Shown here: piece by piece, positions 1,226 through 32,000 of the stretch | Layout of the letters: each line of letters starts with the position of its first letter | Numbering within the stretch: position 1 is the stretch's first letter | NCBI GenBank assembly: GCA_021826315.1 | Contig: JAKAZZ010000030.1 | Location: 1-32,440, forward strand | Direction of reading: 5' to 3' | DNA length: 32,440 bases | DNA from: Actinomycetes bacterium | Lineage (GTDB): Bacteria > Actinomycetota > Acidimicrobiia > Acidimicrobiales > Acidimicrobiaceae | The notes under the pieces: generated by a model | What the model was told of the DNA's origin: nothing | The model's input: only the letters and a program-made list of their open reading frames with translations | Databases searched by the model: none | Translations under genes and position numbers: made by a program

Positions 1226-2161
1226 GTGGCCGAGGGTCTCGGACCGAATCTAAGGGTACGGCGATGGCTTGTCATCGCCTTACCTCTTTTAGTAGCCGTA
1301 TTGATAGCGGTAACCCTAATACTCCACCTAAGTAGCAGTGGTTCGGATAACAGCGACAAATGGCCTAACTTTGGCAACCCAACTTGTAGCAATTGCGCCA
1401 AATTCGCTTCGATGTCATCTTTTCAACTCTTTCTCGGCGGGGTTCCTGCATCGATTCCTTCACACCTCAGCTACGTTGAGGCAGACCTTTTCGACATCTC
1501 AAAGGCTCAGATAAATAGGTTGAAGACCCTCGCTTCCCAGGGAACCGTTATCGGGTGCTATATCGACGCTGGCACTTATGAGTCATGGCGCCCCGACGCC
1601 AAATCGTATCCTCCGTCGCTCTTAGGTAAGGGCGACATCGGCTGGATTGGAGAGAGGTGGGTAGATATCGCCGATCCAAATGCCACCATTGCACAGATCC
1701 TTGAGAAGAGAGTCAAGCTCTGCAAAGAGCGCGGCTTTCAGGCGGTGGACTTCGATAATGTCGATGGATACCAAAACAACACTGGTTTCAAAATTTCTCC
1801 GACACAACAGTTGTCTTTCAATACCTTCTTGGCCAATCTCGCCCACCACTACGGACTTCTCGTCGCCCTCAAAAACGATCTAGATCAAATCAAGCAACTC
1901 GCACCGAAGTTCGACTTTGCTGTCGAAGAGAGCTGCATTCAGTATCAGGCCTGTCAAAATCAGCAAAATCTCGCCGACGGAGAGAGTAAGTTCACAGCTA
2001 CAAAAGCGATCTTTGACGTTGAATATCAAGATCCAAGTGCCACGGTCTGTCGCGTGGCAAAGAACAGCAATGTTACGGTGAATTTCACAAGGTTACAACT
2101 ATCCACAGTTGAGGTCAGCTGCCAGTCGGTCCTTCAAGACTCAATGCCAGCTCCTCAATAG
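1226..2161 (+). CDS. Membrane-anchored GH114-like glycoside hydrolase
   Basis: The 311-residue product starts with a basic segment and one hydrophobic helix (about residues 13-34), so it is a secreted protein held at the membrane or cleaved. The body matches the GH114 (endo-alpha-1,4-polygalactosaminidase-type) TIM barrel: GCYIDAGTYESWRPDA early on, WVDIADP in the middle, GFQAVDFDNVDGYQN, then VALKNDLDQ and DFAVEESC near the end. Acidic residues at the ends of these strands are the expected active site. Members cut galactosamine-containing polysaccharides or are of unknown specificity; one plausible role is processing exopolysaccharide at the cell surface. The GTG at 1226 is the first start after the ROK stop and has no good ribosome site. 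The last 47 bases overlap the 3' end of the convergent arsR gene. Family assignment is fairly firm, substrate is not. Confidence 0.75.
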   Translation: MAEGLGPNLRVRRWLVIALPLLVAVLIAVTLILHLSSSGSDNSDKWPNFGNPTCSNCAKFASMSSFQLFLGGVPASIPSHLSYVEADLFDISKAQINRLKTLASQGTVIGCYIDAGTYESWRPDAKSYPPSLLGKGDIGWIGERWVDIADPNATIAQILEKRVKLCKERGFQAVDFDNVDGYQNNTGFKISPTQQLSFNTFLANLAHHYGLLVALKNDLDQIKQLAPKFDFAVEESCIQYQACQNQQNLADGESKFTATKAIFDVEYQDPSATVCRVAKNSNVTVNFTRLQLSTVEVSCQSVLQDSMPAPQ

Positions 2162-2543
2162 CCTTAAAGAGTGCGACACGGGATGGGGCAAATCTATACC
2201 AGATCCACTTTCCTCGCCGCTCAGAGGTCAACCAACCCGAGCTCACCAGCATTGCAAGGTGGTGGCTTACCGTCGACTGGGACCTGCCAACATTCGCTAC
2301 CAAAGCACAAGCGCAGAGGGGTTGAGGGTAAGCATTTTTGTGAAAGGCAAGAAGCTTGAGTCTTACCGGATCAGAGGTCGCGGCTAAGATCTCAGCCACT
2401 TCCTTAGAGTTAGCGGCCACATGGTTATTCACCGATCCGAGATCTTCAAAGCCGCAGCCTTCCGATGTGGACTCATCTGCTGCTAGGAGTTTAATTTCTT
2501 CCACCACTTTGAGTCTAAAAGCACATTGGTAACTGAACTTCAT
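2115..2543 (-). CDS. arsR: ArsR-family metalloid-responsive repressor
   Basis: The protein has 142 residues, longer than the usual ~110, because of an N-terminal extension of about 45 residues. The core is a winged helix: DPVRLKLL (helix 2), LCACALVANVGRSQSTVSHHL (sensor and recognition helices) and LTSERRGKWIWYRF (wing). Cys77 and Cys79 in PLCACALV sit where classical ArsR proteins carry the ELCVCDL As(III)/Sb(III) site. Cys7 or Cys30 in the extension could supply a third thiol. It is divergent from the channel-arsC pair, and its ATG lies inside the palindromic operator, so it should repress both itself and the resistance genes and release DNA on binding arsenite. The start is uncertain: the ATG at 2543 lies within the operator, and a downstream start is possible. 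Confidence 0.85.
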   Translation of the reverse strand: MKFSYQCAFRLKVVEEIKLLAADESTSEGCGFEDLGSVNNHVAANSKEVAEILAATSDPVRLKLLAFHKNAYPQPLCACALVANVGRSQSTVSHHLAMLVSSGWLTSERRGKWIWYRFAPSRVALFKAIEELALSLEGPTGS

Positions 2544-2563
2544 ATCGACAGCTGTCGATATGA
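2540..2563. promoter_or_regulatory. ArsR operator: perfect 24-bp palindrome between arsR and the channel gene
   Basis: The core ATATCGACAGCTGTCGATAT (2542-2561) is its own reverse complement, and the symmetry extends two more bases on each side to 2540-2563. It covers the arsR start codon (2541-2543, minus strand). A TATGAT -10-like box for the divergent gene (2559-2564) overlaps its right arm. Binding of an ArsR dimer here would block both promoters. The symmetry is seen directly; the role follows from the position between arsR and arsenic genes. Confidence 0.8.
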
Positions 2564-2572
2564 TATTTATTC

Positions 2573-3274
2573 ATGGATAGCAAACAAGAGGCAGCCCAAG
2601 GCGACATCGGGACTCCACAACGGCGGCTAGCGAGCGAATTTATAGGGACCGCAATTCTCCTTTTAGCAGTTGTGGGTTCTGGAATTCAGGCAACTCTCCT
2701 GTCACCACACGACGTTGGACTCGAGCTCCTTGAAAATGCTCTAGCCACCGCTGCTATCCTTTTGGTAATCATCACAATCTTCGCTAAGGAGTCTGGAGCC
2801 CACTTCAATCCCTTGGTAACCGCCTTGTCAGCGGTAAAAGATGAGCTGACGTGGGGCCAGGCCACCATCCAAATTATGGTCCAATTTGCTGGCGCTATAG
2901 CCGGCACACTCGTAGCAAATTTGATCTTTGGCGTTCCTAACATTCACTTCTCAACCCACGTTCGTCAATCTTCACCTCACTTCGTATCTGAAGTAGTCGC
3001 CACTTTTCTTCTCATTATGGTCATCGAACTCTCTGGAAAGACCTACGACTCTAAGGCAACCCCGGCCCTGATAGCGGCTCTAATTGGTGCGGCTTACTTC
3101 TTCACCTCTTCCACCTCCTTTGCCAATCCGGCAGCCACCATAGGGAGGATGTTTACCACTTCGTTTGCCGGAATTAGCCCCTCATCAATCACCTCTTTCA
3201 TAGCAGCCCAAATAATTGGTACAGCGGGCGCATATCTATTTTCAAAACTCTTCACAAGCAAAGGACAAATCTAA
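2573..3274 (+). CDS. MIP-family channel (AqpS-like aquaglyceroporin) of the arsenic unit
   Basis: This 233-residue membrane protein has six hydrophobic helices and the two MIP half-helix loops. The first NPA box reads HFNPLVTA and the second FANPAATIGR. The Arg that normally follows the second NPA (NPAR) and narrows the pore is replaced by Ala, which would give a wider pore. Channels of this kind in ars operons, such as AqpS of Sinorhizobium, let arsenite formed by ArsC leave the cell down its gradient, taking the place of an ArsB/Acr3 pump. That role is inferred from context. arsC starts 2 bases after the stop. No ribosome site precedes the ATG, and a -10-like box ends 8 bases before it, so the mRNA is probably leaderless. 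Induction by arsenite through ArsR is expected. Confidence 0.82.
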   Translation: MDSKQEAAQGDIGTPQRRLASEFIGTAILLLAVVGSGIQATLLSPHDVGLELLENALATAAILLVIITIFAKESGAHFNPLVTALSAVKDELTWGQATIQIMVQFAGAIAGTLVANLIFGVPNIHFSTHVRQSSPHFVSEVVATFLLIMVIELSGKTYDSKATPALIAALIGAAYFFTSSTSFANPAATIGRMFTTSFAGISPSSITSFIAAQIIGTAGAYLFSKLFTSKGQI

Positions 3275-3276
3275 AA

Positions 3277-3684
3277 ATGGACAAAAAAGAGGTTCTATTC
3301 GTCTGCGTCCACAACGCTGGCAGATCTCAAATGGCCGCAGGCCTCATGCGCGAACTCGCCGGTGACGTAGCTGATGTCAAGTCCGCGGGTAGCGAACCGG
3401 CCAATACTCTAAACCCCGCAGTCGTAGCTGCCATGGCGGAGATAGGTATCGACATTTCAAAGGCGGTGCCTCGTAAACTCACCTTCGATGACGCCAAGGC
3501 AACGGATGTAGCAATCACTATGGGTTGCGGGGACGCTTGCCCCGTCTTTCCCGGAAAGACCTACCTCGATTGGCAGCTTGATGACCCAGCAGGCAAGTCT
3601 ATCGAAGAGGTCCGTATAATCCGAGATCAGATCAAAGACCTCGTTGAGGGACTCGCAAGTGAAATCAGGTCCGGCAAGATCTAG
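3277..3684 (+). CDS. arsC: Arsenate reductase, low-molecular-weight phosphatase type
   Basis: The 135-residue cytoplasmic enzyme reduces arsenate to arsenite. It has the PTP loop CVHNAGRS with Cys10 as nucleophile and Arg16, and the general-acid loop DWQLDDPAG near residues 98-106. Cys84 and Cys88 in GCGDACP sit where the thioredoxin-coupled (Staphylococcus-type) ArsC carries its redox cysteines Cys82 and Cys89. This points to an intramolecular disulfide cascade reset by thioredoxin rather than to the mycothiol-only type, although a mycothiol link cannot be excluded in an actinobacterium. It sits 2 bases after the channel gene and would be co-expressed with it under ArsR. AAAGGA some 11 bases upstream of the ATG may serve as ribosome site. 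Length and motifs are normal for the family. Confidence 0.93.
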   Translation: MDKKEVLFVCVHNAGRSQMAAGLMRELAGDVADVKSAGSEPANTLNPAVVAAMAEIGIDISKAVPRKLTFDDAKATDVAITMGCGDACPVFPGKTYLDWQLDDPAGKSIEEVRIIRDQIKDLVEGLASEIRSGKI

Positions 3685-4917: not shown

Positions 4918-5733
4918 TTTTGCCCTCGGAGATCCATCAAAGCGACTAATGGTAGCCCTCTCTCAAACCTGCTCATTTTTCCAGGAGCGTGAAGCGGGGA
5001 AGGCTCCATTTGTCACCAAATGGAAGTGACCTTACTTCTAATCCGATCCTACCTTTCCATGAAGAGCTCACAAAAACCCGATCACTTCCGAACGAGATCG
5101 CCACTGCAAGATCCAACCGCTAAGGTCACACGTGCATAATAATTCAAAAGAAACGCAATATCGCTCCGAGCCCAGATAACAGCTTTGTACTAATAAGTTG
5201 CGTCACCGCGAGAAGGAGCAGCGGCAATAGAGTGCAAGCCATATTAGATGAGGCGAGGATCAGGTATTTCTTAAAGTACTTTGAAGTTAATTGAGAATTG
5301 AACTTCTGTAATTTCACAGAAATCATTAAGTTAATTAACAGCGCTGAAATCGAACCACCCTTATTGGGTAATGTAAAAATATCGATGAAACCAGATTTGC
5401 CCGGAGTAGTAAAGCCTATTCAAATCCTCCCAAATCACCTTTGTTAACGGTCATCCAAAATGATTATGAGTCATTAAATCCCTTATGGAAGTGCCATTTT
5501 TAAAAATCATTGGTCCCTTACGTAATTCCAATCAGAACAGATTTGAACCAAGTAAGCGTTATCCTCTAGTCAATTTGATAGAGAGGCAAAGTTGTGAACC
5601 TCAACTATCTAAGATGGGCATCTAAACCATTTCCTTTGCTCCACCGTCGATCTAAATTGCCTTCCTCGCCCCTAACTTCAGTAAGGATTCATTTAATTTC
5701 GCTATTGTTTTGGTCAGAGAGGCGGATTTTGTA
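4918..5733. other. Gene-poor, A+T-richer intergenic region
   Basis: About 800 bases without a convincing gene. It holds a hairpin at 5005-5024, a short inverted repeat TTCTGT-N6-ACAGAA near 5304-5321, TTAATTAA near 5330, and probably the promoter of the flavin operon at its right end. A 60-codon minus-strand frame (5144-5326) encodes one hydrophobic segment but has no family match I recognise and no clear ribosome site. Confidence 0.6.
5005..5024 (+). terminator. Hairpin downstream of the aminotransferase gene
   Basis: TCCATTTG and CAAATGGA form a perfect 8-bp stem with the 4-base loop TCAC, about 90 bases after the aminotransferase stop. No T-run follows, so it may be a weak terminator or an mRNA 3' end stabiliser. 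Confidence 0.3.
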
Positions 5734-7128
5734 ATGAAAAGCACGACTTTTTTCCCTGACACTTCACAAATTGGCAATGTTGGAAACGTTTCAGCAGGCT
5801 ATAAAGATAGTGTGCCTAGACCCCCATCTCGCTTGGCATTCAATGCGATGGTGGTAATTCTCGGCCTTGGCTTTGGGGTTTTTGTAGCTCTGCCAATCGT
5901 CGATGGCACCCAAAGCGAATTACACATCACCGGCGGCCTCGCTATGTTCATCGGATCGGTCACCGGGATAGTTGGAACGTACTTAGCGTTGATAATGGTA
6001 ATCCTCGCTAGCAGGATGCCAGCTCTAGAACGAGTACTAGGACAGGGTGGTGTAATACATTGGCACCGGAAGTTAGCCCCGTGGCCAATCTTACTAATTA
6101 TTGCGCATGCAATCTTTCTCACGTTGTCCTATGCCGAGGCAGCAAAGACAGGCATCTTATCTGAAGTTGGGGTCGTAGTAGATACATTTCCCCACTTGGT
6201 AACTGCGACTTTCGGACTTGGGATCATGGTTCTAATCGGCATTGTATCGGTCCCGCAGATACGCCGAAACATCTCACGTGAGAACTGGTGGATCCTCCAC
6301 CTACTCATGTACGTTGCCCTTGCCATCTCGTTTGCCCACGAGATCGCCCTAGGGCCCTCTTTTGTAAAACATCCCCTAACTCAAATTGCATGGATTGGAG
6401 GGTGGCTCTTTGCCTTAGCTCTTATTGTGATATTTCGTATTGGAGTACCAATCGCTAGATCACTGCGCTACAAGTTACGCGTCGCCGAAGTACATCGCGA
6501 GAGCGAAGGCGTCGTCTCGATCGTGCTCGAGGGCAGGGGGCTGGAGCGACTGAAGATCTCAGGCGGACAATTCTTCGAGTGGCGGTTTTTAACGAAGGGA
6601 ATGTGGTGGCAGGCACACCCATTTACGGTATCAGCCTTGCCTAAACCTCCTTTTTTACGCCTTACCGTCAAGGCTCTCGGAGACTTCTCATCATCACTCG
6701 CAGAGATCAAAGTTGGAACATCTGTGGCAATAGAAGGACCGTATGGTTCATTTACAGTTGAGGCATCTAAAAGACCGTTGGCACTTTTGATAGCTGGTGG
6801 AATTGGCGTCACCGCCGTTCGATCCCTATTGGAGGAGATCTCCCCAAAGGCTCGTCCAGTAGTTGTATTGCGCGCTAATAAAGAGTCCGAACTCGCTCTA
6901 CTGGACGAAATTGTAGAGCTCGTAAGAGTTCGTAAGGGAGTGGTTCACAAATTAATCGGTAGTCGTGAAGCAGTCAACTTGGCCTCAATTATAAAACTCG
7001 TCCCAGACATGAAGCGTCGCGACGTATTTATCTGCGGTCCTGAGGGTTTTGTAAATCAAGTTGAATCGATAGTAAAGAGAAGCGGCGTCCCGACGGAGGC
7101 CATCCACCACGAAGCGTACAGTATCTAG
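5734..7128 (+). CDS. Ferric-reductase-like transmembrane flavocytochrome (bis-heme b, FAD, NAD(P)H)
   Basis: This 464-residue protein carries electrons from cytoplasmic NAD(P)H through FAD and two b hemes to the outer membrane face. The N-terminal half has about six helices with the two heme-ligand pairs of the ferric reductase/NOX family: His111-x13-His125 and His189-x12-His202. The C-terminal half is an FNR module: GGQFFEW and HPFTVSA (FAD), GPYGSF, LIAGGIGVTAVRSLLEEI (NAD(P)H pyrophosphate) and DVFICGPEGF. There is no 2Fe-2S domain. ATG 5734 is preceded by GAGAGG at about 11 bases; a TTG at 5710 is an alternative. The FMN-binding protein starts 16 bases downstream and apbE overlaps that gene, so the three form one operon. 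The FMN protein is the likely direct acceptor; the final acceptor (Fe(III), quinone or other) is not visible. Confidence 0.88.
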   Translation: MKSTTFFPDTSQIGNVGNVSAGYKDSVPRPPSRLAFNAMVVILGLGFGVFVALPIVDGTQSELHITGGLAMFIGSVTGIVGTYLALIMVILASRMPALERVLGQGGVIHWHRKLAPWPILLIIAHAIFLTLSYAEAAKTGILSEVGVVVDTFPHLVTATFGLGIMVLIGIVSVPQIRRNISRENWWILHLLMYVALAISFAHEIALGPSFVKHPLTQIAWIGGWLFALALIVIFRIGVPIARSLRYKLRVAEVHRESEGVVSIVLEGRGLERLKISGGQFFEWRFLTKGMWWQAHPFTVSALPKPPFLRLTVKALGDFSSSLAEIKVGTSVAIEGPYGSFTVEASKRPLALLIAGGIGVTAVRSLLEEISPKARPVVVLRANKESELALLDEIVELVRVRKGVVHKLIGSREAVNLASIIKLVPDMKRRDVFICGPEGFVNQVESIVKRSGVPTEAIHHEAYSI

Positions 7129-7144
7129 TTAGGAATATAACCAA

Positions 7145-7717
7145 GTGAAACCATCCCTAAAATTAATAGGCGCTGCCTCGGTCGGCTTTGTTGGAGTGAT
7201 TGTAATTCACGGGCCAGCACCGTCGACTCAAAACACCTCTTTAGTAAAGGCAAGCGCCCCATCCCAATCCCCGACGACTACTTCGGTCTCAGCTAACTCT
7301 GGGTCGACAACGACTACCGCGGCCTCAGCTAACTCTGGATCGACAACGACTACTGTCGCACCGGCTAATTCAGCATCAACCACAACGACAGTCGTTAATG
7401 CAACCACGACAACTACCGCTGCTCCTCAATCGATTTCAAATGCAACGATGATCGGTACCTTGGAAAATTACGGATACGGGCAGATGGCCGTAAAGGTGAC
7501 GATCACAAATAACAAAATCACCGATGTAAGCGTAGCTTCGCTTCAGACCGCCGAATCCTACTCTTTGCAGTTAGAGCAACAGGTAGTGCCTATCTTGAAG
7601 TCCGAGGTCCTCAAGGCCCAGAGCGCACAAATCATGGGGATCACCGGAGCCACCTACACCAGTGAGGCGTACGCCTATTCGCTCCAAAACGCCTTGACTA
7701 AACTCAAATTTAAATGA
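7145..7717 (+). CDS. Membrane-anchored extracytoplasmic FMN-binding domain protein
   Basis: The 190-residue protein has an N-terminal hydrophobic anchor or signal (about residues 5-22), a Ser/Thr-rich linker (about 33-95) built from repeats, and an FMN_bind domain (about 100-190). GITGATYTS near residues 165-173 matches the [S/T]GAT-x-[S/T] site to which ApbE attaches FMN through a phosphoester, here probably on Thr172. It would be a one-domain electron shuttle outside the cytoplasmic membrane, fed by the flavocytochrome encoded just upstream. The GTG start at 7145 has AGGA about 11 bases upstream. The apbE start overlaps this stop by 4 bases (ATGA), indicating translational coupling. Related domains occur in NqrC, RnfG and many flavinylated redox proteins; the short stand-alone form with a long linker is notable. 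Confidence 0.85.
   Translation: MKPSLKLIGAASVGFVGVIVIHGPAPSTQNTSLVKASAPSQSPTTTSVSANSGSTTTTAASANSGSTTTTVAPANSASTTTTVVNATTTTTAAPQSISNATMIGTLENYGYGQMAVKVTITNNKITDVSVASLQTAESYSLQLEQQVVPILKSEVLKAQSAQIMGITGATYTSEAYAYSLQNALTKLKFK
7289..7396 (+). repeat. Three imperfect 36-bp tandem repeats encoding the Ser/Thr linker
   Basis: Units at 7289-7324 and 7325-7360 differ at only a few positions, and a third, more diverged unit runs 7361-7396. Each encodes a 12-residue block of the type SANSGSTTTT plus two residues. They form a flexible, possibly glycosylated spacer that may vary in length between strains. Confidence 0.8.
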
Positions 7718-8460
7718 TCTCCTACGTTCACCATGCAATGGGTACCGCTTTTTCATTCTCAATCACGGATGACAAGGCTGCTAAGTCAAAGGTAGATAAA
7801 GCACTGTCGATGGCATGCTCGGAGATCGACTCCCAAGACAACCGATTCAGCCCATGGAAAAAGGAGAGCGAACTAAGCCTTTACAACCGGGGGGAGGTAA
7901 AAAACCCCTCGAAACTCTTCGTAGAGGTAATGGAGGAGTGCGAAAGAGCAAAGGCGATCACCGCTGGCTACTTTGACCCCTGGGCTTTGGGAGAGAAGTT
8001 CGATCCGACGGGATTAGTCAAGGGGTGGGCTGCGCAACGCGCCCTATCGATTCTACTTGAAGCCGGAATTGAGGGTGGGGTTGTGAACGCTGGCGGAGAC
8101 ATATGCGTCGTCCCGGGCCGCTCTTACCTAATCGGGGTACAAGACCCATTTAATTCGGGAGAAATCCTCGGGGCGATAGAAGTGACCGACGCGGTAGCCA
8201 CCTCCGGAAGCTACGAACGGGGCGACCACATCGTCAACGTTAAAGGTGACGCCATTACGACGGTAGCAGCAACCGTAAAGGGTAAGGACCTAACCCTCCT
8301 AGACGCACTCGCCACTGCACTCATAGCTGGTGGTCATGAGGTTCTCACCCTAATTTCAAAGATGGAAGATGTAGCAGCGATGATGGTAAAAATCGATGGA
8401 TCTATGCTCGCTACATCCAATTTTTCCTTCTCAAAAGGAGAAAGCACCCCGTCTGAATAA
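7714..8460 (+). CDS. apbE: FAD:protein FMN transferase (ApbE family)
   Basis: This 248-residue ApbE protein uses FAD to attach FMN covalently to a Thr/Ser of a target protein. Landmarks are the N-terminal MGTAFSFSI, SQDNRFSPW, the FAD/Mg-binding DPTGLVKGWAAQRA, VNAGGDICV, and ATSGSYERG with DGDHIV-like residues after it; the C-terminal DALATALIAGG carries the usual late Mg2+ Asp. It is shorter than the ~320-residue exported lipoprotein forms and has no signal peptide, so it appears to act in the cytoplasm, or is exported by an unrecognised route; this matters because its target acts outside. The ATG overlaps the stop of the FMN-binding gene by 4 bases, which makes that protein the obvious substrate. 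Confidence 0.9.
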   Translation: MISYVHHAMGTAFSFSITDDKAAKSKVDKALSMACSEIDSQDNRFSPWKKESELSLYNRGEVKNPSKLFVEVMEECERAKAITAGYFDPWALGEKFDPTGLVKGWAAQRALSILLEAGIEGGVVNAGGDICVVPGRSYLIGVQDPFNSGEILGAIEVTDAVATSGSYERGDHIVNVKGDAITTVAATVKGKDLTLLDALATALIAGGHEVLTLISKMEDVAAMMVKIDGSMLATSNFSFSKGESTPSE

Positions 8461-26915: not shown

Positions 26916-27137
26916 CTTATCTGCCTTGGCTTTACGCGCCTTCTTGATGACTTCAACGAAAAAGGCCATAGTAAAGGTTGCGATGACGCCAATCACCAGG
27001 ATCGGAGCCTGGTAACGATTGCCCTTCCCGATAAAATACACGACGCCGAGAATGACCACAATCGCTGCAGTTATTTCAGGGGTGTCACCGATAAGAAAGT
27101 CGTACCAGAACTTAAAGAACCCAACGACATACTTCAT
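26913..27137 (-). CDS. Small two-helix membrane protein, last gene of the iron-type operon
   Basis: This 74-residue protein has an amphipathic start KYVVGFFKFWYDFLIGD, two hydrophobic helices (about residues 21-38 and 44-62) and a basic tail, EVIKKARKAKADK. I do not recognise a named family. Its ATG overlaps the stop of the preceding membrane-protein gene by 4 bases (ATGA), so it is translated with that gene and is likely its partner or a small accessory subunit. A terminator overlaps its own stop codon. Topology by the positive-inside rule puts the tail in the cytoplasm. The tight coupling argues that it is real in spite of its size. Confidence 0.8.
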   Translation of the reverse strand: MKYVVGFFKFWYDFLIGDTPEITAAIVVILGVVYFIGKGNRYQAPILVIGVIATFTMAFFVEVIKKARKAKADK

Positions 27138-27892
27138 CCAATGGCTCCTCTGTGCGATTTGGCATAGTTGGTCTTTACCGAGGTAAATGCCTTCACTATC
27201 AACATCATGAACATGGCGTAGACGAGGATCAAAAAGACGATTGCACCGTCAGAGCCGGGCCACTTGATACCCAATCCTTCTCCAGCCCAAAAGGTACCAA
27301 AGCTAATGAGCATGATACCAACGGTCGTCTTCATTAGGTTTTCGGGGACCTTGGAGAGTTGCTTAGCTACTATCGCGCCGATAATGCCGACGATGACAAC
27401 TGCTGCAAGCGCGGAGACCGAGGCGATCAGCAATTTGTGGGCCGACAGGCCAAGTGTCAACACAACGATTACGACCTCTAATCCTTCAAGGAAGACTCCC
27501 TTGAAGGCCACGACAAAGGCAGTCGAGTCACGAGAGTCACTCACCGTCGGGATCGCCTTTAACCTCGCAACCTCTTTATCGAAGATCTCATCTTCATTGT
27601 GGAGGGCCTTTAGACCTGCGAAACGCAACATTGCCTTTCGTAACCACTGCAATCCAAAGATCAACAGGAGTGCTCCAATGATAAATCGCAGCGACGATAT
27701 AGGGACGTACTTCACCAACGATGGACCAATCCCAAGGATCAGTGCAGCTAGTGCTAGTACTGCGACCGCAGTTCCTTCAAATGCGGAGCGCCAGCTCCTT
27801 GAAGAACCAGCAGCCAATACTATCGTCAGGGCCTCAACCATCTCTACGGCAGAGGCCAGGAAGACTGCGATGATCAGTACTGTAGTGCTCAT
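27134..27892 (-). CDS. Multi-helix membrane protein with two ExxE motifs (COG4280-like, putative metal permease)
   Basis: The 252-residue protein has about seven hydrophobic helices in two halves joined by a charged loop (about 95-125). Each half starts with a helix containing an acidic pair: ASAVEMVEALTIVLA (Glu17, Glu20) and FKGVFLEGLEVVIVVLTLG (Glu136, Glu139). The second, EGLE, resembles the RExxE motif by which FTR1/EfeU permeases move iron. It resembles an uncharacterised membrane family I know as COG4280, which I recall only from pattern. The ATG overlaps the stop of the ABC ATPase gene by 4 bases, and its own stop overlaps the next gene, so it belongs to the iron-type ABC operon. A metal permease or exporter role is inference. 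Confidence 0.72.
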   Translation of the reverse strand: MSTTVLIIAVFLASAVEMVEALTIVLAAGSSRSWRSAFEGTAVAVLALAALILGIGPSLVKYVPISSLRFIIGALLLIFGLQWLRKAMLRFAGLKALHNEDEIFDKEVARLKAIPTVSDSRDSTAFVVAFKGVFLEGLEVVIVVLTLGLSAHKLLIASVSALAAVVIVGIIGAIVAKQLSKVPENLMKTTVGIMLISFGTFWAGEGLGIKWPGSDGAIVFLILVYAMFMMLIVKAFTSVKTNYAKSHRGAIG

Positions 27893-29046
27893 CTATTCAC
27901 CTCTTCACTAACTTCAGATGTAAATGCTAGGTGACTCATCGACGGCTCATGGCCGCCAGTGCCCTTTTCGCTCAAGTACGCTAAGGCGCCGGCAGGATCG
28001 ATGGTAACAATCACCGAAGTTCCTCGCTCATATCGCCTGTGACTCGAGACTCCGTGAAGGTGAAAGGTTCCATGTACTAGGGCATGGTCGTAACTTTTTC
28101 CGCGATAGGCGACGTCTACTACTGTTCCACCAATTGAACCATCACCATGGTCCTCGACGACCTTTATCGATCCCGGGCGAACCAAGACAGTCACCCTGTC
28201 TCCCGCATCTGCGGAGTCCATGGCGGTGGCGATTACCGCCCCGTTGCTCCCATCGATCAAAACCTCTACGAGATCCCCACCGAGGCGCGAGCGAACTACA
28301 CCAGATATCTCTCCACTTACTCCAGTGAAGCGTGCGACAAATGGCGTGGCGGGACGTAGGTATATATCTTCTGGCGAGCCGATTTGAACGAGCTTACCTT
28401 CGGAAAGGACTCCGATTCGATCGGCGAGAGCAAAGGCCTCGCCCTGATCGTGAGTGATATAAACCGCAGTAGCACCCGACTCCCGGACTAGCGAAGCGAT
28501 CTCAACGCGAAGTCGCTCTCTTAGATCCACGTCCAAGTTGGAGAGCGGCTCATCGAAAAGAACTAGCGCGCTTTCGCCTACGAGTGCACGAGCTAGGGCT
28601 ACGCGTTGTTGCTCGCCTCCGCTCAACTCAGATGGATAGCGATTTGCCTTATGCGAAAGACCTACTTTGGTAAGCATCTCGAGGGCCTTGGGACTGCGAT
28701 CTTTCTTCTGGTCCGAACCACGTCGAAGGGCAAAGGCAACATTCTCGAGGGCTGTCATGTGCGGCCAAAGAGCGTAGTCCTGAAAGACCATAGACACCTT
28801 ACGCTCTTCGGGTGGTAGGGCAAAGTTGTCGTGGCACACTTTCGTATCGCCGATGAGGATCTGGCCCTTCTCGATCTTTTCGATACCAGCAATCGTCCGC
28901 AAGATCGTCGTCTTACCCGAACCGCTAGGTCCGAGAAGAACCAAAAGTTCGCCTTTGACGACCTCAAAGCTAACGTTGTCGATAACGACTCTGCGCTTGA
29001 CGTAGCTCTTTGTTACGCCCTTATAGGTGAGTGCAATTTCGCTCAT
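27889..29046 (-). CDS. fbpC: Iron(III)-type ABC transporter ATP-binding protein
   Basis: The 385-residue ATPase energises import of the substrate bound by the lipoprotein encoded upstream. The nucleotide domain has Walker A GPSGSGKTT at residues 39-47, the Q-loop VFQDYALWPHMTALENV, signature LSGGEQQRVALARAL, Walker B LVLFDEPLSNLD and switch ITHDQGEA. A C-terminal TOBE-like region (about 240-385) follows, as in FbpC/FutC/PotA-type proteins. It ends with an unusual tail of about 30 residues. The start codon overlaps the permease stop by one base (TAATG), and its stop overlaps the next start by four. Iron as substrate is inferred from the operon; spermidine, thiamine or phosphonate relatives share the architecture. 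Confidence 0.9.
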   Translation of the reverse strand: MSEIALTYKGVTKSYVKRRVVIDNVSFEVVKGELLVLLGPSGSGKTTILRTIAGIEKIEKGQILIGDTKVCHDNFALPPEERKVSMVFQDYALWPHMTALENVAFALRRGSDQKKDRSPKALEMLTKVGLSHKANRYPSELSGGEQQRVALARALVGESALVLFDEPLSNLDVDLRERLRVEIASLVRESGATAVYITHDQGEAFALADRIGVLSEGKLVQIGSPEDIYLRPATPFVARFTGVSGEISGVVRSRLGGDLVEVLIDGSNGAVIATAMDSADAGDRVTVLVRPGSIKVVEDHGDGSIGGTVVDVAYRGKSYDHALVHGTFHLHGVSSHRRYERGTSVIVTIDPAGALAYLSEKGTGGHEPSMSHLAFTSEVSEEVNR

Positions 29047-30824
29047 TAAAAACCTTCATTCTTCGACGCTTCGAGATTCAATAACGCCTTCCAACCCTTA
29101 GGTATAACTAGACGATAGATCAAAGAAGCGACACCAACAATAACTAGCGCATATAGGAGAGCGACGATCGACATCGCACTTCCTCCACCGTAGTCATAAC
29201 CAGCTACGAGCCTATTAATCGCTACAGAAAGAGGGTAGAGACCAGGCGGATAAAGGAGCTGAGACATCGGCAACTCGAACAGCGTCTTTGCAAATGTCAA
29301 CAGCCACGCCGAAAGGAGGGCGCGAGCGACGAAGGGCAAGACTGCATGGCGCCACGCCCTCGACGGATTCGACCCATAGACCCTCGATGCCATAGCCATA
29401 TTCGACTGTACCTGCGAAATAGGACCGACCAAAAGACGTGATGCTCCTGGAATTGCTGATGCGACATAGCCCAAGAGGAGGAGCTTCGAGGTGCCGTAGA
29501 TCGCAAATCCAAGGTGGTCAAAGATCGGTTGGTTGTAACTGAAAATATAGCCAGCACCAAGGACGATTCCCGGAAGAGCAACCGAGCCAAGAAGGACAAA
29601 GTCAAGGGCTTTGACCCCCCACGAAGAACCCCTTCGCACAAGGACCGATGCGAGGTAGCCACCAACAGCAACGGTTATCGTCGCCGTCATCAACGAAAGT
29701 AGCGTCGAGTACCAGAGGGGAGACCCTGAGAGGGTAGAGGAGAAGACTCTCGTATAGTTAGATATCGTCAACGACGAAAACGAGATTGAACCGCCAAAGC
29801 CAGACAAAAGCGAGGAGGTTAGAATTCCAACCAGAGGCACCAGGATAGCAAGGAAGAAGATTGCTGCAAGGAACGCATAGACCCCAACTTTAGCCTTGCC
29901 CTCGAGCTTCACCATGGTCGCACGCCTTCTACGACCACCGGCGATGGCATAGCTCTTTGATTTGGTGAGCCTTCGCTGAATTATAAGAGGAACCAACGCC
30001 GAAAGAATCAAGATCCAGCTGATCGCTGCTGCGCCCGAGAAGTTTAACGGAATCGAATCGATCGCCGTATACAGACTGTAGGTCGCCATCGGGAAGTGGG
30101 CGCCTGCGGCCAAGGAGTATGCGACACCAAAGTCTGACATCGACTCAGCGAAGACGATCGCGAAGGCTGAAAGGATCGCCGGCATAAAGATGGGAGCGAT
30201 GATCAAGAGCGACTTCATGCGACTAGCAGCGTGTACTCGCGCAGCATCTTCTAGCTCGGCACCAAGATTTTCAACCGTTGCCCCAATAGTTAGATAGGCA
30301 AAGGGAATACCCGAGAAACCAAGGACGACGATCACGCCCAAAGGTCCGAAGAAGGGATGAAAGAGGGCGAGCGATCCAATGTGAAGCCTTACAAGGATTC
30401 CACCTGGCTCTAGGAGCCTCTGCCAACCCGCCGTTGTGAGATATGTCGGGACTAGCAGCAAGAACCACACTGAGGCCGAAATCAGCTTCTTGAAGCGGAC
30501 GTTTGTTCGTTTTGTGATCCAAGCGAGCGCTAGGCCGATAGATGTTGCTATCGCTCCTGAAGCTATCGAGACCCCAAGCGAATCGAGCAATCCACGCAGT
30601 GCATCTCCGGCAAAGGCGTATTTGAAACCCGTAAGCGAAAATATAGGTGCGCCAGGAGTCGACAACCTGGGAAAGAATGCAAGTGCCAAAAAGTAGATGA
30701 CAGGTACGACGATGAGTACTACGACCACGATACCTAAGAGAGTCGAGAGGTTTAGCTTCTTCAAAGAAAAGTTTGAAGGCGCCTTCGACTCTACATCATT
30801 TGGCCTATCAAGTAAGAGTGCCAT
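29046..30824 (-). CDS. fbpB: Iron(III)-type ABC transporter permease, two fused permease domains
   Basis: The 592-residue membrane protein has about twelve helices in two BPD_transp_1 domains (about 70-280 and 370-570), the fused form typical of FbpB/FutB-type iron permeases. The EAA loops, which dock on the ATPase, are ELEDAARVHAASRMKSLLIIAPIFMPAIL in the first half and MAMASRVYGSNPSRAWRHAVLPFVARALLS in the second; the second EAA is less regular (MASRVYG). ATG at 30824 has AAGGA about 5 bases upstream, a good ribosome site. The binding-protein gene ends 87 bases upstream with a strong hairpin in the gap; the ATPase gene overlaps the stop by one base. Confidence 0.9.
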   Translation of the reverse strand: MALLLDRPNDVESKAPSNFSLKKLNLSTLLGIVVVVLIVVPVIYFLALAFFPRLSTPGAPIFSLTGFKYAFAGDALRGLLDSLGVSIASGAIATSIGLALAWITKRTNVRFKKLISASVWFLLLVPTYLTTAGWQRLLEPGGILVRLHIGSLALFHPFFGPLGVIVVLGFSGIPFAYLTIGATVENLGAELEDAARVHAASRMKSLLIIAPIFMPAILSAFAIVFAESMSDFGVAYSLAAGAHFPMATYSLYTAIDSIPLNFSGAAAISWILILSALVPLIIQRRLTKSKSYAIAGGRRRRATMVKLEGKAKVGVYAFLAAIFFLAILVPLVGILTSSLLSGFGGSISFSSLTISNYTRVFSSTLSGSPLWYSTLLSLMTATITVAVGGYLASVLVRRGSSWGVKALDFVLLGSVALPGIVLGAGYIFSYNQPIFDHLGFAIYGTSKLLLLGYVASAIPGASRLLVGPISQVQSNMAMASRVYGSNPSRAWRHAVLPFVARALLSAWLLTFAKTLFELPMSQLLYPPGLYPLSVAINRLVAGYDYGGGSAMSIVALLYALVIVGVASLIYRLVIPKGWKALLNLEASKNEGF

Positions 30825-30852
30825 AAATTCCTTATGTTCTCAGAAATGGGTT

Positions 30853-30886
30853 AAGGGCTTTCACCAAATATATGGTGAAAGCCCTT
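30853..30886 (-). terminator. Intercistronic 14-bp hairpin between binding-protein and permease genes
   Basis: AAGGGCTTTCACCA (30853-30866) pairs with TGGTGAAAGCCCTT (30873-30886) around the 6-base loop AATATA. No T-run follows on the minus strand, so it is more likely a 3' stabiliser or partial terminator that raises binding-protein mRNA over the permease mRNA. Confidence 0.75.
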
Positions 30887-30911
30887 GCCATTCAACTACG
30901 AAAATATCAGA

Positions 30912-32000
30912 TCAGTTGACGATATTCGAGGTGAACCAAGAGTTGACTGAGTTCTCTTGAGGACCCCACTTGTATGGGTCAACGGTCTGGTACTGAATCG
31001 AGGAGAGCGAAGGCACTGCCGACTCAGGTGAAACACCTTGGATGACTGGCCAGTATAGGGAGTCACCAGTTGGGTCACCGGAGAGTTGAACCTTTTGACC
31101 TGCTGGAGACAGAACGAAATTCACGAACTGCTTAGCTTCGGCGATCTCTTGGGCTGGCGCCTTGGCGTCAATTCCAATTACTCCTGGAAGCAGAGTCGAT
31201 GGAGACAAGAAGGCAACCTTGATCGTTGGATCCTTGAAACCTGCGCCAATTCCGGCTGAGCTCTGGATAAGTGCAAGCTTGATCTGACCGGTTGAGAGGG
31301 CATGGAGTGTGTCTCCGTTGGTCTGGAAGACCTGAAGGCCATTGGCCTTAAGGTTGGTGTAGAAAGCCTCACCTTGGTTTACGCCACCGAGGTAGTTCAT
31401 CATTCCGGCTACGAAGGGGTAGGTAGGACCTGAAACCGCTGGGTCGTTCATACCGACCTGGCCCTTGTACTGTGCGGAGAGAAGATCAGTCCAGCTAGTT
31501 GGAGGCGTGGAAACGGTCTTGGTCGAGTAGACCAGAGTTCCGGCCATCGTAAGACCAGTTGGGATGTAGCTACCATCGCTTGGAAGTACGCTCTTGGCAG
31601 CTGCTGTCCAGCTTACAGAAGGCTCCCAATTCTTGAGAAGATAGTTTTGTTGATCGAGAGCGGCGAATGCTTCATCACCGTCAACCCAGAGAACGCCCCA
31701 CTTGGGGTTAGATGCCTCAGCCTGTACTCTTGTTAGTAGTGGACCAGTTGAATCATCAACAAGAGTGGTTGGAATACCGGTCGCCTTTTGGAAGGCGGTG
31801 GTCATAGCTGAGTCATAACCCTGAGCTGAATAAACGACCAACGGTACTTTGGCACTGCTGCTCGAAGAAGATGCTGCTGTTGTACCAGTTGAAGAGGAGC
31901 TGCCGCTACCGCAAGCTGCTGCGAGCAACGATACGGCGCCAACCCCTAGCGCAACCGCGCCACGACGATTTAATTTTGATGCATAACCCATGGCGACCAT
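30912..32000 (-). CDS. fbpA: Iron(III)-type ABC transporter substrate-binding lipoprotein
   Basis: The 362-residue protein has an N-terminal RR pair (NRRGAVALG, residues 11-19) and a lipobox LLAAAC with the lipidated Cys at residue 30; the RR suggests possible Tat export. A Ser/Thr-rich linker (31-50) follows, then a type 2 periplasmic-binding fold opening with VPLVVYSAQGYDSAMTTAFQKATGI, which is the common start of FbpA/FutA iron-binding proteins (VVYSA...). YKGQVGMNDPAVSGPTYPFVAGMM and LALIQSSAGIG also fit. The paired Tyr ligands of iron-binding FbpA proteins cannot be placed with certainty; QYQTVDPYKWG near the end offers a candidate. ATG 32000 or the in-frame ATG three codons on may be used. 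It is the first gene of the operon; an AAAGG-ACAA-CCTTT inverted repeat lies at 32022-32035 before it. Confidence 0.87.
   Translation of the reverse strand: MVAMGYASKLNRRGAVALGVGAVSLLAAACGSGSSSSTGTTAASSSSSSAKVPLVVYSAQGYDSAMTTAFQKATGIPTTLVDDSTGPLLTRVQAEASNPKWGVLWVDGDEAFAALDQQNYLLKNWEPSVSWTAAAKSVLPSDGSYIPTGLTMAGTLVYSTKTVSTPPTSWTDLLSAQYKGQVGMNDPAVSGPTYPFVAGMMNYLGGVNQGEAFYTNLKANGLQVFQTNGDTLHALSTGQIKLALIQSSAGIGAGFKDPTIKVAFLSPSTLLPGVIGIDAKAPAQEIAEAKQFVNFVLSPAGQKVQLSGDPTGDSLYWPVIQGVSPESAVPSLSSIQYQTVDPYKWGPQENSVNSWFTSNIVN

Follow-up and report, generated by a model that had tools for sequence, protein, structure and literature searches.

Probable flavin loading before export by a short, signal-less ApbE in an actinobacterial MsrQ-like flavinylation operon

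The window analyzed here is a stretch of 32,440 nucleotides from an Acidimicrobiaceae bacterium (GCA_021826315.1, contig JAKAZZ010000030.1, positions 1 to 32,440), and its plus strand carries at 5734..8460 three genes for a MsrQ-like membrane reductase, an anchored protein that binds flavin mononucleotide (FMN), and a short ApbE, the flavin adenine dinucleotide (FAD):protein FMN transferase. Judged by its sequence, this operon is an unremarkable representative of an established type, the MsrQ-like flavinylation systems. As a whole, we consider it fairly probable that the operon forms an electron line across the membrane to an FMN on the outer face, and that the short ApbE loads this FMN onto its target in the cytosol before the target is exported. 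The second part of this reading comes from the absence of an export signal on the ApbE, which proved to be a general property of the operon type.

Gene 3 (7714..8460, plus strand) encodes the ApbE, a protein of 248 amino acids recognized by PF02424 with 106.3 bits (cut-off 25.6, E = 2.5e-30). The claim of the initial annotation that this enzyme has no signal peptide was confirmed, since an in-frame TAA (7711..7713) directly precedes the ATG and only 8 codons separate that stop from the conserved MGT motif, leaving no space for an N-terminal signal. The same stop rules out an overlooked upstream start of the gene.

For comparison, 143 ApbE loci from relatives and from a 149-genome sample of the phylum were surveyed by the hydropathy of the region between any possible start and the MGT motif. 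The signal test was the 12-residue Kyte–Doolittle hydropathy with a cut at 1.9, which was set after seeing the gap between the groups; the values of 0.86 and 1.03 for its homologues L010 and L074 led us to count L073 (2.12) among the signal-less loci, L072 was without its N-terminus, and eight ApbE genes of relatives stood outside the survey (G002:C99, G003:C63, G004:C33, G009:C56, G022:C14, G027:C30, G032:C135, and G036:C149), whereas those of the phylum sample were all included. A signal-like N-terminus was absent from all 32 ApbEs with an FMN_bind partner, whose highest value was 1.38. Another 32 ApbEs, all from the phylum sample and from genomes that we take to be Coriobacteriia and their kin, bore signals, with scores of 1.92–3.68 and, by eye, several lipoboxes. 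The other 79 had neither an FMN_bind partner nor a signal by hydropathy.

When named genomes were searched with an alignment built from 33 short ApbEs, at least 587 relatives were confirmed, and the best 80 of them were used; this set and the survey partly overlap, with at least four named loci being survey contigs too. The N-termini of 79 of these 80 ApbEs fell below 1.9. Independently of the choice of start, no more than 25 codons lay between the in-frame stop and the MGT motif in 11 of the 32 survey loci and 19 of the 75 usable named loci. The targets had hydrophobic N-termini, scoring at least 1.69 in 30 of 31 whole survey targets and 1.51–2.92 in the 70 named loci with a readable target. 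The mismatch of compartments between enzyme and target, raised by the initial annotation for this one operon, is therefore real and general to the operon type, and it suggests that the FMN is probably attached in the cytoplasm before export. In all nine sample genomes with the FMN_bind-partnered short type (G000, G017, G048, G063, G120, G126, G127, G128, and G161, with G017 and G063 being single contigs), every ApbE found at E ≤ 0.001 was signal-less, as were the four ApbEs of the window's genome.

The short ApbE should be an active transferase despite an internal deletion, as its predicted fold and its catalytic residues suggest. His172 (codon 8227..8229) aligns with the site of the H257G substitution of the V. 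cholerae enzyme in alignments to 6nxi/6nxj; it is invariant together with K103, D197, and T201 in a 33-row ApbE alignment, and at least 90% conserved in another set of 34 rows. The predicted model had a mean predicted local distance difference test score of 95.1 and matched 4ifu and 4ig1 (highest listed TMq 0.86) as well as 6nxj_B (E = 4.6e-14). A UPF0280-like non-transferase identity was rejected, with NCBIfam PRK04334 reaching only E = 1.8e-4 versus 2.5e-30 for PF02424.

The deletion marks the whole group. The distance from MGT to DPTGxVKG was 84–95 residues in 30 of 30 measured FMN_bind-partnered ApbEs, versus 122–152 residues (59 of 60) and 128–148 residues (31 of 31) in the other two ApbE groups, a median shortening of 47 residues. 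In an unrooted tree made by a quick method, from which L072, L131, and L132 were left out, the FMN_bind-partnered ApbEs formed one side of a branch with a Shimodaira–Hasegawa-like approximate likelihood ratio test value of 97. Twelve rows called signal-less fell among the 32 signal-bearing rows of this tree, so ApbEs without a signal also occur outside the groups discussed here.

The target of the transferase is encoded by gene 2 (7145..7717, plus strand), which starts with GTG and specifies 190 residues comprising an N-terminal anchor, a Ser/Thr-rich linker, and one FMN_bind domain (7472..7696; PF04205, 39.7 bits, cut-off 22). The hydrophobic anchor or signal segment spans residues 5–21 (7157..7207), with an N-terminal 12-mer hydropathy of 2.55; lysines stand ahead of it (N-region VKPSLK) and the long linker follows. 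The predicted FMN acceptor is Thr170 (codon 7652..7654), obtained by applying the [S/T]GA[S/T] rule (PMC8238504; for this and the other papers cited, statements refer to the parts available to us) to TGAT at residues 167–170, numbered from the GTG at 7145. The acceptor had previously been placed at Thr172, which is two residues off.

Although TatC is present, export of the window target by the twin-arginine translocation (Tat) route was considered unlikely, its N-region containing no RR, KR, or KK. Among 105 target open reading frames (ORFs) with a start (5 more were without one, and some contigs were entered twice), the stretch before the hydrophobic core, which may extend past the chosen start, held RR in 47, KR or RK in 34, KK in 11, and none of these in 13. 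A strict Tat pattern occurred in 1 of the 105.

Gene 1 (5734..7128, plus strand; a TTG start at 5710 is also possible) encodes the membrane reductase and lies 16 bases upstream of gene 2, while genes 2 and 3 overlap by 4 nt at ATGA (7714–7717). The protein matched Ferric_reduct (PF01794, 48.8 bits, cut-off 28), FAD_binding_8 (PF08022, 33.1 bits, cut-off 22), and, narrowly, NAD_binding_1 (PF00175, 23.1 bits, cut-off 22). Hydropathy predicted six segments in the membrane part and a seventh hydrophobic stretch inside the NAD domain. Two pairs of putative heme ligands were recognized by conservation in an alignment of the window protein with 103 other rows (104 in total): H111 and H125 (H-x13-H, 6064..6108), kept in 91/91 and 91/99 non-gap rows, and H189 and H202 (H-x12-H, 6298..6339), kept in 92/92 and 92/100. 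These four histidines, the six segments, and the FAD and NAD domains agree with the two-heme reductase put forward in the initial annotation, and the coordinates and domains of its three-gene operon held up, with all Pfam matches above their cut-offs. A scan for promoters and terminators gave fewer sites than shuffled sequences did.

In the MsrQ-like flavinylation systems (Meheust et al., 2021; PMC8238504), a PF01794 protein with a NAD-binding C-terminus is clustered with an FMN-binding protein and apbE, as in the window. The window operon has the traits of such a system, namely PF01794, six transmembrane segments, two predicted heme sites, a NAD domain, an FMN_bind protein with [S/T]GA[S/T], and apbE. 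The systems occur mainly in Actinobacteria (PMC8238504), and the signal-less ApbE and its internal deletion are features of the window type that go unmentioned for them in the available parts of that paper. The same gene order is annotated in Streptomyces goshikiensis (PET44_RS32520-32530) as ferredoxin reductase family protein, FMN-binding protein, and FAD:protein FMN transferase, where the last two genes likewise overlap and the ApbE begins 14 residues before MGT; that operon differs in being adjoined by a divergent two-component system and in a target that begins with MRR, neither of which the window has. In Listeria, as proposed for the window, an ApbE-type enzyme, FmnB, puts FMN on an exported protein, PplA, but the accounts available place FmnB outside the cytosol, whereas the window ApbE has no signal. 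The membrane partner in the Listeria system is a different protein from that of the window. The cytosolic ApbE that serves the fumarate reductase of Klebsiella is signal-less like the window enzyme, but its target is a soluble intracellular enzyme, whereas the window target has an export segment (PMC12052999). According to the same review, most ApbEs seem to be secreted and cytosolic ones exist for intracellular targets; the window ApbE lacks the export signal described for the majority. The three-FMN protein of Streptomyces azureus was discussed in terms of an extracellular transferase (PMC10339131), and three Streptomyces loci with three-FMN targets (L213, L215, and L230) have signal-less ApbEs. 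In a literature search that left most subscription journals outside its scope, no paper on a signal-less actinobacterial ApbE was recognized.

Gene-neighbourhood conservation, which had been suggested as a check, was found and is not due to chance. In 69 of the best 80 named loci, the end of an FMN_bind gene falls within the interval from 400 nt upstream to 60 nt downstream of the MGT codon of apbE, and in 69 a gene on either strand matches the profile of MsrQ plus FAD/NAD domains. The taxa among the matches listed included Streptomyces, Actinomadura, Pseudonocardia, Kribbella, Saccharopolyspora, Acidimicrobiaceae, Thermoleophilia, and Patescibacteria. Of the 80 loci, 29 have a response regulator and 27 a histidine kinase akin to the corresponding proteins of L186; the window has neither. 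Among genomes of relatives, many of them incomplete, 15 of 24 in the same family and 4 of 16 others in the same order contained a short ApbE preceded by FMN_bind. Six loci (L209, L221, L227, L229, L231, and L232; Patescibacteria, Wirthbacteria, Amesbacteria, and Nomurabacteria) have the order FMN_bind, apbE, MsrQ-like gene, with the last ending about 2.2 kb past the MGT codon of apbE. A plasmid search returned 38 records, every one below 60% identity.

Taken with what is known of the family, the anatomy and conserved residues of the operon imply a path from NAD(P)H to the outer face, as had been claimed earlier, NAD(P)H being the donor proposed for the MsrQ-like flavinylation family. NAD(P)H would reduce the cytosolic FAD of the MsrQ-like protein, and electrons would cross the membrane via the two hemes to FMN bound covalently to Thr170 of the anchored FMN_bind protein outside. 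The short ApbE would be cytosolic, insofar as its gene leaves no space for a signal, and would load FMN onto the target inside the cell, in the compartment of FAD synthesis, aided by the translational coupling of the two genes. The flavinylated target would then be exported by the general route rather than by Tat, as it has no twin arginine. ApbE is able to act on short motifs that are not folded, and bulky adducts are tolerated by the Sec pore.

Several points weigh against loading before export. According to a review (PMC12052999), ApbE supported growth in an early study only when it was periplasmic, and in the literature available to us we met no demonstration of an FMN-bearing chain crossing Sec. 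TatC is present, so a Tat route is possible, above all for the relatives with RR. Hydropathy is a proxy for the prediction of signal peptides and topology; one named ApbE of the 80, L214, reached 2.07, and L041, a survey target, had a value of just 0.97. At 89.9% completeness, the window's genome could be lacking an exported ApbE.

As to the terminal acceptor, the operon could be an assimilatory or dissimilatory Fe(III) reductase, which we consider unlikely. VIT1 occurs in 153 of the 1797 MsrQ-like clusters of the 2021 survey (PMC8238504), and an OFeT_1-type iron permease (Pfam) adjoins an apparent ferric ATP-binding cassette (ABC) transporter (by eye) at 27134-32000 of the window, but some 20 kb separate these genes from the operon, and inspection by eye, with no Pfam scan, recognized no iron gene in the 25 largest of the neighbour clusters drawn from 112 loci. 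One of these clusters consists of ABC ATPases from 14 loci with no substrate assigned, and it includes an ATPase of the window. The earlier suggestion of Fe(III) as the acceptor thus found no support and stays a guess.

It is also unlikely that the ApbE crosses the membrane with no classical signal, whether alone or carried along by its target, and attaches FMN on the outside in the way of the characterized systems. ApbEs of exported targets have indeed been described as secreted or membrane-bound (PMC12052999, PMC10339131), but the enzymes of this type have no hydrophobic N-terminus, the model has a compact soluble ApbE fold, and FAD would need export too. If instead the FMN domain were cytosolic, enzyme and target would share a compartment and the mismatch would disappear, with the electron line stopping short of the outside. 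Such a topology appears improbable, because the lysines ahead of the anchor suggest an N-in/C-out orientation by the positive-inside rule, the long Ser/Thr linker follows the anchor, and FMN-binding domains are extracytosolic in the published model (PMC8238504). Equally improbable is an MsrPQ-like role in feeding electrons to the repair of oxidized envelope proteins, since MsrQ is a homologue of the membrane part but has neither the FAD/NAD fusion nor the FMN partner; no search for MsrP was made.

Besides the reading of probable cytosolic loading, the survey yielded a second group of interest, the orphan ApbEs, which are signal-less and have no FMN_bind partner. The discovery loci, lying within L009-L132, had an anchored low-complexity ORF directly upstream of the orphan ApbE in 62 of 79 cases, and 29 of these 62 ORFs ended in [S/T]xxS, versus a mean of 3.0 and a maximum of 10 in 2000 shuffles. 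As the pattern was picked after seeing this set, only a fresh set (L236-L258) tests it, made up of 23 new matches of 163–201 bits among the matches listed from a search of 396 genomes, with G250 left out. All 23 had the upstream anchored low-complexity ORF, and 18 ended in [S/T]xxS, versus a mean of 1.33 and a maximum of 6 in 5000 shuffles. Three loci in the same score range (L259-L261, family f60) had been excluded in advance because they are related to L101, which bears a signal; all three carry signals themselves and lack an upstream ORF of this kind, and counting them would give 18 of 26. Three of the 18 positives (L244, L246, and L252) belong to one genus and share one ending, and three genomes of the fresh set contribute two loci each. 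As a control, 1381 other anchored low-complexity ORFs were taken from the loci retrieved, and 33 of them ended in [S/T]xxS; many of these control ORFs are probably not genes. A MsrQ-like gene was on the same strand of the fetched stretch in 20 of 23 fresh and 55 of 66 discovery loci. The upstream ORFs of L013 and L107 end in Cys instead.

These upstream [S/T]xxS peptides may be an undescribed class of ApbE substrates, with position, motif, and neighbours pointing to putative flavinylation of the terminal Ser. More broadly, and only tentatively, we propose that Actinobacteria outside the Coriobacteriia-like lineages load flavin in the cytoplasm and then export the loaded protein, and that related signal-less ApbEs would flavinylate the last Ser of single-anchor disordered [S/T]xxS peptides, placing a bare flavin on a leash beside a MsrQ-like heme protein; taken together, we hold this as somewhat doubtful.

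Two of the four ApbEs in the window's genome have no FMN_bind partner. The cluster on contig C38 (L010, G000:C38, 6474-10298), a member of the [S/T]xxS peptide class, holds an anchored peptide of 112 residues ending in ATATGGS, a signal-less ApbE, a MsrQ-like protein, and a NuoF-like protein; by its sequence, the peptide, which ends in Ser, is a candidate for a new ApbE substrate. The cluster on C89 (L009, G000:C89, 6008-8884), a looser relative with an internal motif, encodes an ApbE, a small MsrQ-like protein with 25.9 bits, just under the Pfam cut-off of 28, and two anchored low-complexity proteins in which TTRAS and TTRPS stand close to the C-terminus. C89-type proteins from other genera (L018, L019, and L022) carry the classical motif, TTGAS or STGAS, near the C-terminus, whereas those of the window's genus have TTRAS, TTRPS, TTTAS, and similar sequences, so that the glycine is not kept in this genus. 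A second pair of FMN_bind protein and short ApbE is found at 3-1010 of contig C19 (L011, G000:C19), where the contig begins inside the FMN_bind gene. Elsewhere in the window, positions 2115-3684 hold a possible arsenic set comprising an ArsR-like regulator and an aquaporin-like channel (both by eye) and an LMWPc protein (Pfam) that is maybe ArsC-like.

The ApbE of exported targets is treated as extracytosolic in the literature (PMC8238504, PMC12052999, PMC10339131), which implies an external supply of FAD. If it is true that a large share of the Actinobacteria load flavin inside and then export it in bound form, this picture would fail for them, and their export machinery would have to let a bulky, covalently bound cofactor through. 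The 2021 survey, according to the parts available, required a signal on the ApbE, FMN-binding, DUF3570, or DUF2271 gene (PMC8238504), a filter that would drop clusters with a signal-less ApbE and a substrate without a known domain, and this may explain why the C-terminal-Ser peptides do not figure there. Where the transferase acts is a question for the operon type as a whole, and the survey to which it led points to a possible new class of substrates.

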